The translations under genes and the position numbers were made by a program. From the NCBI GenBank assembly GCA_013215375.1, contig JABSRB010000018.1:1-64000 (forward strand): a stretch of DNA of 64,000 bases, given 5' to 3'. Each line of letters starts with the position of its first letter. Position 1 is the stretch's first letter. Source of the stretch: Oceanospirillaceae bacterium. Lineage in GTDB: Bacteria; Pseudomonadota; Gammaproteobacteria; Pseudomonadales; Balneatricaceae. Positions 12,280 to 43,224 of this stretch are shown piece after piece. The notes beneath the pieces were generated by a model. It saw nothing but the letters and a program-made list of their open reading frames with translations. It ran no database searches and was not told where the DNA came from.

Positions 12280-12450
12280 TAGTTAGTTTTATCCTGAAAC
12301 GGGGCCGTAGCGAGGCTGATCCAATCGTTCGAGATGTGCAATACTAGATATGGACGTTTGGTTGTTCCAAATAACTGTATCTAGTGGTGTGCAGATCGAA
12401 TGGTTGGGGCAGTCGCAGTAGGCATCTGTTTTTTGATGGAAACTAGTTAG
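12280..12450 (+). repeat. Dispersed intergenic hairpin element, copy A (fliH-fliI)
   Basis: Core 12294-12420 aligns without gaps to 41547-41673 (107/127 identical by hand count). Nested stems GGCTG/CAGTC, CCAATCGTTCGA/TCGAATGGTTGG, ACTAGATA/TATCTAGT, TTTGG/CCAAA. Confidence 0.9.
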
Positions 12451-39588: not shown

Positions 39589-40428
39589 TTAAGCTACCGT
39601 ATCCGCTGTATCTGTGGTTTTGTTTTCGTAGACAAAGTCAGAGATTTTAATGAATTCAACAAGAGAGAGGGTTTCAGGCCTACGAATAGGATCTATATCA
39701 AGTGCTTGTAATTGCTCTGCTGTCATTATGCCTTTCAGGTTGTTACGCAGTGTTTTGCGACGCATGCTGAAGGATGTTTTTACAATTTTTTCCAAGGTGC
39801 TTAGGGATTTAGCAGTATGTGGCTTCTGCTTATAAGGCATTAATCTCACAATTGCAGAGTCAACCTTTGGAATGGGGTCGAAAGCTTCAGGTGGAACAAT
39901 AAACAGTGGTTCTATTTCGCAGTAGTACTGCGCCATAATACCGAGGCGCCCATAGAGTTTGTCTCCAGGTTTTGCTGCTAGGCGATCAACTACTTCCTTT
40001 TGTAACATGAAGTGCATGTCTTGAACGCAGGTGGTGTGTTGCAGCAAATGGAAAATTAACTGGGTCGAAATGTTGTATGGCAAGTTGCCTATTATACGCA
40101 GCGGTCGCTCATCTTGTTGCAGAGAGCTGAAATCAAATTTCATAGCATCTGCTTCAAAGATACGAAACTTATCTTCGTAGCTAAAAAATTTGGTTCTTAA
40201 AATGGGTATCAAATCGCGATCTAGCTCAACGGCATCTAAAGCGCCGGCTTCATCGAGAATGACTTCTGTCAATGCGCCTAGTCCAGGGCCTATCTCAACC
40301 ATATGATCACTAGGTCTTGGGCTTACGCCTCGAATAATACGGCGAATGACGCCTTGGTCTTGTAAAAAATTCTGACCAAAACGTTTGCGCGCTTTATGTC
40401 CGGCGTTATTGCTGCTCTGACGACTCAT
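39589..40428 (-). CDS. rsmA: 16S rRNA dimethyladenosine transferase RsmA/KsgA
   Basis: RKRFGQNFLQDQGVI; EIGPGLGALTE; GNLPYNIST. Confidence 0.97.
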   Translation of the reverse strand: MSRQSSNNAGHKARKRFGQNFLQDQGVIRRIIRGVSPRPSDHMVEIGPGLGALTEVILDEAGALDAVELDRDLIPILRTKFFSYEDKFRIFEADAMKFDFSSLQQDERPLRIIGNLPYNISTQLIFHLLQHTTCVQDMHFMLQKEVVDRLAAKPGDKLYGRLGIMAQYYCEIEPLFIVPPEAFDPIPKVDSAIVRLMPYKQKPHTAKSLSTLEKIVKTSFSMRRKTLRNNLKGIMTAEQLQALDIDPIRRPETLSLVEFIKISDFVYENKTTDTADTVA

Positions 40429-41432
40429 GATAAAAATTGACCTTTTGTTTGACTCGAGCTCTGGTGAGCTAGTTGTGATGCATAATTAATAGCGATCTTT
40501 AAACTGCCTGTATCAGCGACGCCAAGACCTGCAATATTGAGTGCAGTGCCGTGATCGACGGAGGTTCTGATGATAGGTAGACCTAAGGTGATATTGACGG
40601 CTTCGCCAAAACCTGAATATTTTAACACAGGTAATCCCTGATCGTGATACATAGCGAGTACAGCATCACAATCTTTTAAGTATTTCTTGGTGAATAGACT
40701 GTCAGCGGGAAGTGGTCCTACTAAATCAATTCCCTGCGCGGTGTATTCTTTAAGTACTGGAGAAATAATATCTATTTCCTCAGTGCCCATGTGTCCGTCT
40801 TCACCTGCGTGAGGGTTGAGACCACAGATTAAAATTCTGGGTTTGTCGATGGCGAATTTAGTGTGTAAATCGTCGATTAAAATGTCGAGTATTTGCCGTA
40901 ACTTGTGTTTGGTAATGGCGTTGCTAATGTCTTTTAATGGTAAATGAGTGGTTACTAGCGCCACCCTTAATTTAGCCGTTGCTAGCATCATCACAACTTC
41001 GCTGACGCCGGTTTGCTGTTGTAGGTATTCTGTATGCCCGCTAAATTTTATTCCAGCTTCATTGATGACTCCCTTATGCACAGGAGGCGTTACCATTGCA
41101 TCGTACTGCCCCTGCAAACAGCCTTGGCATGCCTGTTCTAATGTGGCGATTACATAGCTTGAGTTTGCTATATCTAAGTGTCCAGGGAGTGCTGCTGCGT
41201 TCAATTTGATGGGGCTGACAAAGAGCTGTCCGCTACGCGAGGCTTGCTGAACACTAGGATCAAATATTAATACCTCCAGCGTTAGTCCCAAGGCTTTGGC
41301 CGTTGCAGCAAAAAGCTCTGGGTCGCCTATCGCTACCAGTTGGTCGGTATAGTCCTGCTGGGATATTTTGACAAGAAGTTCTGGTCCAATACCTGCGGGT
41401 TCGCCACTGGTGATGGCAATTCTTTTAATCAT
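40425..41432 (-). CDS. pdxA: 4-hydroxythreonine-4-phosphate dehydrogenase
   Basis: RIAITSGEPAGIGPELL; MYHDQGLPVLKYSGFGEAVNITLGLPIIRTSVDHGTA. Confidence 0.97.
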   Translation of the reverse strand: MIKRIAITSGEPAGIGPELLVKISQQDYTDQLVAIGDPELFAATAKALGLTLEVLIFDPSVQQASRSGQLFVSPIKLNAAALPGHLDIANSSYVIATLEQACQGCLQGQYDAMVTPPVHKGVINEAGIKFSGHTEYLQQQTGVSEVVMMLATAKLRVALVTTHLPLKDISNAITKHKLRQILDILIDDLHTKFAIDKPRILICGLNPHAGEDGHMGTEEIDIISPVLKEYTAQGIDLVGPLPADSLFTKKYLKDCDAVLAMYHDQGLPVLKYSGFGEAVNITLGLPIIRTSVDHGTALNIAGLGVADTGSLKIAINYASQLAHQSSSQTKGQFLS

Positions 41433-41532: not shown

Positions 41533-41700
41533 CGCTAGTGTCCATGCTGAAACAGGGGCGTAGCGAGGCTGATCCAATAGTTCAAGATGAGTGACCCTAG
41601 ATAGGGGCGTTTGGTTGTTCCAAATAACTCTATCTAGTGGTGATCAGATTGAAATAGTGGGGCAGCCGCAGTAGCTCATGGTTTCAGCTTGGGTACTAGG
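41533..41700 (+). repeat. Dispersed intergenic hairpin element, copy B (pdxA-surA), right end split by MITE
   Basis: 127-bp ungapped match to copy A; terminal inverted repeat GCTGAAAC (41546-41553)/GTTTCAGC (41681-41688). Confidence 0.9.
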
Positions 41701-41862
41701 AGCCTGTCCGAGAGCAGACTAATCGGCAGCGACCAATCCTCTTTGGTTATAATTAACGCTAATTTTCGTTAAATAGCACGCTATTCGCCTTAAATCACCG
41801 CTAATTCTTCCTCAGATAGCTTTGTTCTCGCTTCGATCGCAGTGCTCGGACAGACTCCTAGT
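41695..41862. mobile_element. MITE-like non-autonomous element, TIR ACTAGGAG(C/T)CTGTCCGAG, putative CTAG target duplication
   Basis: 41695-41712 ACTAGGAGCCTGTCCGAG versus 41845-41862 CTCGGACAGACTCCTAGT (17/18 inverted match); 168 bp; no ORF; empty-site comparison with copy A. Confidence 0.85.
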
Positions 41863-41889: not shown

Positions 41890-43224
41890 CTATTTGAATT
41901 CTACATAGGCATTGGCGCGTATTTCTCGTAACCAGTTGTCTTTCTCTTCGCTGAATTTTCGTTTTCCAATGATGTTACGGGCTTGGTTTTCCTGGGCTAG
42001 ATTATCAGTATTTTCTGACTTCCTGTCTAAAACTTCGACAATGTGCCAGCCAAATCTGCTTTCAAAAGGCAGGCTAATTTGGCCTACTTTGGTACGTTGA
42101 ACAACTTGTTCAAATTCAGGAACCATCTGGCCGCTTTCTGTCCAGCCCAAATCACCACCTTGTGAGCTGCTACCTGGGTCATTACTATGCTCTTCGGCAA
42201 GGGAGGCAAAGTCCTTGTCGTTTTTTAACAGCTGTTGGTAAATTTGTGAAGCGAGTCGCTTGGCTTGGCTTTTGGAAGTGACTTCGCTAGGAGAGATTAG
42301 GATATGGCGTACTTTGGTTTTGTCGACAGTCTGTGCTTTAACGCCGTTTCGAGTGTCGCGTAATTGTAATATATGAAAGCCAGTAGGAGTTCTAGTCGGC
42401 TTGCTAAATTGCTTGGGGCTCAATGGCGAGATAGCATCGATCATAGAGCTTGGTAACTCGGCTATTTTACGCCAGCCCATGTCGCCGCCGTTTAGAGCGT
42501 GCGCTGCATTAGAATTACTGATAGCCATGTTGGAAAATTTAGCACCTGAGAGTAGCTTTTGGTACACATCGTTCGCTTTGTTTCTTGCGAGGTTGATGTT
42601 TTTTGGAGTCATTGGGCTGTTGATGGTAATCAATATATCGCTAATTAATACCTCTGCATTACTTTTGCTAGATTGAGAGCGTAAGAAGTTTTGCACTTCT
42701 CTGTCTGATATTTGAATACGTTTACTAATATTGCTCTCTTGCAGTTGGCGGATCAAAATGTCGTCCTTGATTTGCTCTCTTGTAACGATGTAATCTTGGC
42801 CTTGCGCAATCAGCGCGTCGCGGAATTTGGCCAAACTCATGCCGTTGTTTTTGGCGATTTGAGTAATAGTGGCATTGAGCTGTCTATCCGTTACTTTAAT
42901 GCCTTGCTCTGCAGCCATTTTGAGCATGATGGTTCTAGAAATCATCTGCTCCATAACTTGGTTTTGCAAGATGCTTTTGTTGGGAACTTTTGCCCCTTGT
43001 TGTCTGATTTGAGCAGCTGCGCGGGTGATGCTCGATGTGAACTCTGACTCTAGTATTACCTCGTCATTGACGATTGCAATAATCTTGTCTAACGGAGCTC
43101 CCTGGCCAATCAAGGGGAAGAAAGTGAGGCTGGCGAATATAAGGGCCTTACTTATTATTTTTTTGTTCAATTTAGTTGTTCGCATTGTAATACTCACGTT
43201 TTTGATAGCCTTTAATTTTGTCAC
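41890..43224 (-). CDS. surA: periplasmic chaperone/PPIase SurA (start probably 43185)
   Basis: Two parvulin domains; downstream of lptD. Confidence 0.96.
   Translation of the reverse strand: MTKLKAIKNVSITMRTTKLNKKIISKALIFASLTFFPLIGQGAPLDKIIAIVNDEVILESEFTSSITRAAAQIRQQGAKVPNKSILQNQVMEQMISRTIMLKMAAEQGIKVTDRQLNATITQIAKNNGMSLAKFRDALIAQGQDYIVTREQIKDDILIRQLQESNISKRIQISDREVQNFLRSQSSKSNAEVLISDILITINSPMTPKNINLARNKANDVYQKLLSGAKFSNMAISNSNAAHALNGGDMGWRKIAELPSSMIDAISPLSPKQFSKPTRTPTGFHILQLRDTRNGVKAQTVDKTKVRHILISPSEVTSKSQAKRLASQIYQQLLKNDKDFASLAEEHSNDPGSSSQGGDLGWTESGQMVPEFEQVVQRTKVGQISLPFESRFGWHIVEVLDRKSENTDNLAQENQARNIIGKRKFSEEKDNWLREIRANAYVEFK

Follow-up and report, generated by a model that had tools for sequence, protein, structure and literature searches.

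The gap between the two genes that we take, from knowledge of their families, to be surA and pdxA contains a short hairpin element that is real and mobile, and that is best explained as a whole as a miniature inverted-repeat transposable element (MITE) that a transposase from a subclade of the IS1182 family moves in trans, with a YTAR target and a preference for hairpin feet (probability roughly 0.8). It was studied within a window of 64,000 nucleotides, the whole stretch analyzed, from the genome of an Oceanospirillaceae bacterium, hereafter the host. Comparison of genome sequences gave the number of copies, the ends they have in common, their absence from relatives, the motif at the target, the hairpin-foot excess and the paired stem changes that are detailed below. 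The transposase of one IS1182-family subclade would recognize the ends GGAGNCTGTCCGAGAA and move the non-autonomous hairpin in trans, insertion would occur at YTAR sites (mostly CTAG) with probable duplication of the TA, and the preferred landing site would be the foot of an existing hairpin. At the locus described here, the element would have entered a CTAG at the very end of an older hairpin, termed copy B, in the surA-pdxA gap.

A first-pass annotation of the window had described a MITE-like element of 168 bp with 18-nt inverted ends at 41695-41712 and 41845-41862, and both the complementarity of these ends (17 of 18 positions) and the presence of CTAG at both element edges were verified. 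The borders were refined to GGAG...CTCC enclosed by two TA dinucleotides (Table 1), which fit all copies and give an element of 164 bp from TA to TA. Searching the window for the terminus with up to three mismatches returned two matches, both of them the ends of the element (chance expectation 0.02), and no open reading frame of at least 100 amino acids overlaps it. The classification as MITE-like is therefore retained for an element that is small, ORF-less, bounded by inverted ends and present in dispersed copies.

Table 1. Positions of the hairpin elements, their parts and the neighboring genes in the window
Feature	Position	Strand	Description and basis
M-family non-autonomous hairpin element	41699..41858	+	GGAGCCTGTCCGAG...CTCGGACAGACTCC, 160 bp excluding TA; covariance model match 41697-41860, 142.7 bits
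Left copy, probable TA target duplication	41697..41698	.	Outer base C, giving CTAG; the T doubles as the final base of copy B; sequence and terminus statistics
Right copy, probable TA target duplication	41859..41860	.	Outer base G; sequence and terminus statistics
Left terminal inverted repeat	41699..41714	+	Common to the sister-genus 1.75-kb IS1182-family element
Right terminal inverted repeat	41843..41858	-	Terminus comparison
Internal core, most conserved part	41764..41793	+	Around TTTTCGTTAAATAG..CTATTCGCCTTAAA; apical hairpin and internal loop; borders approximate; alignment; helix 6 has 97% of cells paired
Copy B, B-family hairpin	41537..41697	-	161 bp, older, different ends; distantly related to the element; model match E=1.3e-9
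Copy A, B-family copy	12285..12444	-	Own 4-bp duplication AGTT; model match E=5.6e-10
pdxA	40425..41432	-	Presumed downstream gene of the gap holding both elements; ORF and relatives
surA	41890..43224	-	Presumed upstream gene of the surA-pdxA gap; ORF and relatives

Searching the host genome with the 168-bp sequence yielded 46 matches, three of which were reverse-strand duplicates of places already listed, leaving 43 places with 70-100% identity to the element, many more than chance would produce. The search with a covariance model extended this to 120 matches at about 71 distinct places. Most copies measure 164 bp from TA to TA, with further size classes of 28, 43-60, 100-142, 230 and 278 bp. 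The copies of 230 bp (L316, L319, L322 and others) carry about 65 bp of extra sequence in the apical loop, including a GC-rich hairpin CACCCCTTCGGGGCTGGCATG, and the minimal 28-bp form (L069:2100-2140) consists only of the two ends placed back to back, TAGGAGCCTGTCCGAGAACAGGCTCCTA. Neither the element nor copy B is found between surA and pdxA in any of the six congeners (G001-G006), contrary to the possibility raised in the first-pass annotation that relatives carry the region as one continuous conserved unit; in the nearest congener, whose PdxA is 77% identical, the gap spans about 117 bp. At the sister-genus loci, targets are single-copy. Insertions often lie exactly on a stop codon (L114:880-1090, and several copies with the neighboring stop at -3). 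As the first element base after the TA is G, a TAA or TAG codon that receives an insertion always remains a stop, in the form of TAG.

The target site was analyzed across 106 termini, where the outer base is C in 82 and T in 16 cases (C or T in 98), followed by T in 98 and A in 98. The next four bases, GGAG, belong to the element and are 94-97% conserved, and there is little preference beyond the outer base. This bears out the earlier proposal of a YTAR target, mostly CTAG. The accompanying proposal that all four bases of CTAG are duplicated found no support: among 110 well-preserved pairs of edges, deviations affected 13 outer and 3 inner bases of 220 each (p=0.019 under a strict count; an earlier, looser count gave p=0.13), and at non-CTAG targets the left and right 4-mers shared a deviation in 0 cases. 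Unshared deviations and more variable outer bases fit a duplication of TA, with the G or C being part of the element. One informative case is L114, where four sister genomes have TTAA with a stop codon at the site and the occupied site has CTAG as its left edge and CTAA as its right edge, as would be expected if TA was duplicated and the G belonged to the element. At L109, a composite of a MITE and an insertion sequence (IS), the unoccupied counterpart is 95% identical and has a single CTAA, but this counterpart may be paralogous because the site lies within a repeat. Overall, a 2-bp duplication of TA is favored as likelier than a 4-bp duplication of CTAG, with CTAG targets being ambiguous in themselves.

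Copy B and a second hairpin, copy A, belong to a separate B family that is also present at high copy number in the host genome (39 matches at about 38 places). Its elements measure 155-162 bp, exactly 161 bp in 24 of 28, and 18 of these 28 are flanked by an identical 4-bp duplication, mostly ANNT. Copy A is a 19th case, as AGTT is found at 12281-12284 and again at 12445-12448. Even though the distance of 21 nt from CGCAGTA and the comparison of ACTAGTTAG in copy A with ACTAG...TTAG in copy B are as originally noted, copy A had been read as the pre-insertion allele of copy B, and its own duplication identifies it instead as a separate insertion, a paralogue that serves as a family-level control only. 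That AGTTAG follows both copies is due to a target preference they share. Copy B lacks a matching duplication, with CGCT as its left flank and AGTT as its right flank when the element is set aside. The initial description of the element as nested in copy B stands insofar as the insertion adjoins a pre-existing copy B, but not in the sense of interrupting it, since copy B stops at 41697 and the element abuts it. The last T of copy B also serves as the first base of the TA target, and the left flank of copy B does not repeat the element start, so that the simplest order would be copy B first and the element later. When an autonomous partner of the B family was sought in the host by the family's own ends, only short pairs were obtained.

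Unexpectedly, copies A and B are distantly related to the element. A model derived from the M-family element alone matches both of them end to end (Table 1) and reaches E values down to 5e-19 on other B-family copies. As a hairpin model may favor any long hairpin, two additional checks were performed: a sequence-only model still matched several B-family copies (E about 1e-4 to 6e-3), and of 5000 hairpin-preserving shuffles just 1 aligned equally well. The same core is found in a third group with the ends CTGTCGGACTTAA. Being common to families with different ends, the core outlives end changes.

The surroundings of the insertion sites were analyzed for secondary structure. The plain folding energy of the flanks gave a weak signal (p=0.002 versus YTAR sites, 0.04 versus CTAG sites), and the analysis turned to counting hairpins with their feet at the site. 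Perfect or near-perfect stems scoring at least 6 bp with a foot within 3 nt of the TA were found at 11 of 52 host insertions compared to 72 of 1555 YTAR control sites in the vicinity (p=4e-5), with tandem cases set aside and the stem threshold picked after inspection. Unrelated genomes gave stems of at least 7 bp at 6 of 76 insertions and at 16 of 1038 controls (p=0.003), and a small sister-genus set gave no excess (2 of 19); the hairpin-foot excess is modest. The hairpins beside the insertion sites are intact and TA is present on both sides. The copy in the window fits the hairpin-foot preference because the site it occupies is the end of copy B, which folds at -80 kcal/mol (z -8.6). Tandem copies that share one CTAG account for 10 of 62 in the host, where 4.3% would be expected using intergenic CTAG sites only (p=3e-4), and for 30 of 106 in other genomes.

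A full-length IS with the ends of the element, sought as a candidate mobilizer, was found in a sister genus and in Desulfosediminicola. Two genomes of the sister genus contain a 1750-bp IS with the ends GGAGGCTGTCCGAGAA (L109, about 982-2731, and L110), which encodes a transposase of 504 amino acids with the domains PF13751, DUF772 and DDE_Tnp_1. Both of these IS copies adjoin a short-element terminus across one shared CTAG. The composite at L109 (genome G063) is embedded in another repeat, which is about 230 bp long and occurs dozens of times in that genus. In Desulfosediminicola flagellatus, IS copies of 1845 bp carry the same ends, their transposase is 61% identical to that of the sister genus, and four IS copies among those read adjoin a short element in the same way. 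While the terminus (at most one mismatch) is present in 13 of 116 genomes of the host's family, the cognate transposase at a strict threshold is present in fewer, 2 of 116. The gene was not found in the host assembly (95% complete, 96 contigs), and pairing termini over long range revealed no autonomous copy of 1-2.5 kb in the host genome among the 100 of 129 matches listed. Mobilization would thus be historical, or due to a lost or unassembled IS. IS1182-type pieces at host contig ends (L137 at the end of contig C6 and L138 at the end of C60), which probably represent one multi-copy IS collapsed in the assembly, were discarded as mobilizer as they have different ends, GAGGCTGTAGAAAAACC.

The transposases of L109 and L110 score 370.9 and 387.1 bits against the IS1182 model NCBIfam NF033551, well above its equivalog cut-off of 270, whereas on the transposases of the autonomous elements IS5 models reach 20-53 bits, with cut-offs of 110-275. 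IS1182 transposases are related to IS5 but separate. The first-pass annotation had suggested an IS5-type mobilizer, and that such an enzyme moves the element and duplicates all four bases of CTAG would agree with the CTAG at most edges, the YTAR preference and the weak matches of IS5 models to what are distant relatives; 4-bp duplications have also been reported for other IS1182-type elements (PMC11578231, PMC3281130, PMC3852290). We nevertheless regard this as very unlikely, given that all autonomous elements found with these ends encode a transposase of the IS1182 family, that IS5 models stay far below their cut-offs and that the edges lack matched deviations at non-CTAG targets and vary more at the outer bases. 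Full hairpin structure, variants as short as 28 bp and tandem arrays would likewise be compatible with a REP-like element moved as a single-stranded hairpin by a HUH transposase of the RAYT or IS200-IS605 type. The autonomous elements with the same ends, however, encode DDE-type transposases, and neither matching terminal inverted repeats nor a duplicated TA is typical of HUH elements, which makes such a mechanism barely credible. The mobilizer is accordingly best assigned, on transposase sequence models, to the IS1182 family, not IS5, and an IS1182-type transposase would have moved the element.

To survey the distribution of the element, 84,980 species genomes were scanned for the terminus, which resulted in at least 107 stretches. 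The matches listed include Neptunomonas, Nitrincola, Methylococcaceae, Thiotrichaceae, Ca. Venteria, Nitrosomonas and several Desulfobacterota; some of these sequences come from metagenome bins (labeled Bacteroidetes, Actinomycetes and Shewanella) and may be misassigned. Copies from gammaproteobacteria and Nitrosomonas are mostly 164-166 bp long, nearly gap-free and 56-74% identical to the window copy, and those from Desulfobacterota often measure about 145 bp. A structure obtained from averaged single-sequence folds was then tested against shuffles. The 55 sequences support a full-length hairpin of 64 pairs with 85.9% of cells paired compared to 75.9 in shuffles, 330 cells changed on both sides compared to 114+-8, and a covariation score of 0.250 compared to 0.103. 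Two-sided changes affect 26 of the 29 pairs of the central helix. RNAalifold retained only nine terminal pairs from the 55-sequence alignment, probably because the long imperfect stem is penalized. As the structure was drawn from the same sequences and the shuffles ignore their relatedness, the covariation is strong but not final, and it suggests that paired changes maintain the full-length hairpin of the element. Two internal loops (CTACTGCG/TCGCTACG and TCGTTA/CGCCTC) and the apex are conserved in sequence though partly unpaired or mismatched. Comparison with Rfam 15 gave no match for the window copy, and a clean copy hit only miRNA models, all below threshold.

The reason for this conservation can be read in several ways. 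Between co-directional genes, called by a simple ORF rule, the element points against transcription in 20 of 25 cases in the host (p=0.004), in 15 of 22 elsewhere (p=0.13) and in 3 of 8 in the small sister-genus set, a bias that is suggestive only. The element could primarily be a functional structured nucleic acid, either a transcript RNA or a protein-bound folded DNA, with its loops under selection and mobility serving only its spread. The near absence of indels across orders, the two-sided changes, the conserved loops, the core common to families with different ends and the orientation in the host and elsewhere all speak for this, but Rfam contains no matching family, the sister-genus orientation runs the other way, and many copies are degenerate and sit at many unrelated loci, so that we consider it rather unlikely. 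The paired changes might instead be mutational. Any long inverted repeat is open to quasi-palindrome correction, in which replication copies one arm onto the other, and the shuffles model neither such copying nor the relatedness of copies. Correction would erase the internal loops too, yet their mismatched columns are among the most conserved, and the fixed length across orders is left unaccounted for; purely mutational pairing is consequently doubtful. We tentatively entertain, at less than even odds, that the interior is an ancient, selected, folded nucleic acid of about 160 nt with two conserved loops and an apex, which was combined with, or kept pace with, different transposase-recognized ends and spread as a mobile structural module, and not as a decaying IS derivative, among the orders of proteobacteria. 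It may act as a landing pad or RNA element.

MITEs linked to IS1182 have been described before, namely the ISMac2-related MITEs of 160 and 169 bp in Methanosarcina acetivorans (PMC3852290) and MITEPye1 in Paracoccus yeei, which has a long stem-loop and 4-bp flanking repeats (PMC11578231). Like the element, they are small, ORF-less, similar in size and equipped with ends that match an IS1182-family IS. They were reported from single species, whereas the length-fixed hairpin core of the element spans many orders; the ends differ between the subfamilies, and TA is better supported here than the 4 bp, with target duplications of 0 or 4 bp having been reported for IS1182-family MITEs. Within the same transposase family, insertion of IS1272 and TnSha1 is also tied to hairpins, and IS1272 is reported to replace or partly delete the hairpin without target duplication (PMC4923244, PMC5678879). 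In contrast to IS1272, insertion of the element takes place at the foot of the hairpin, which is kept, with TA (CTAG) on both sides. IS5-family YTAR elements share the target motif and are distant DDE relatives, but the candidate transposase of the element falls below IS5 cut-offs and a full 4-bp duplication is unsupported. REP/BIME, ERIC and Correia/NEMIS-type repeats are abundant short intergenic palindromes, sometimes TA-edged, that differ from the element in ends and partners; the sequence comparison with these families covered Rfam. Subscription papers aside, the literature searched yielded no report that prints the termini in this context or describes CTAG bacterial MITEs of this kind. 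IS1182-linked MITEs as such are already known, and the new aspects are the breadth, the fixed length and the constrained core.

The usual view of MITEs is that they arise by deletion from a single IS, are short-lived and stay at the species level. The presence of a length-fixed, structure-conserved hairpin in Gammaproteobacteria and Nitrosomonas, with related families that use other ends, would be an exception among them. This raises the testable question of whether the folded form itself is selected, be it for transposition, targeting or as RNA. For the IS1182 family, the element would add a second system after IS1272, one in which hairpin feet are combined with a fixed sequence target.
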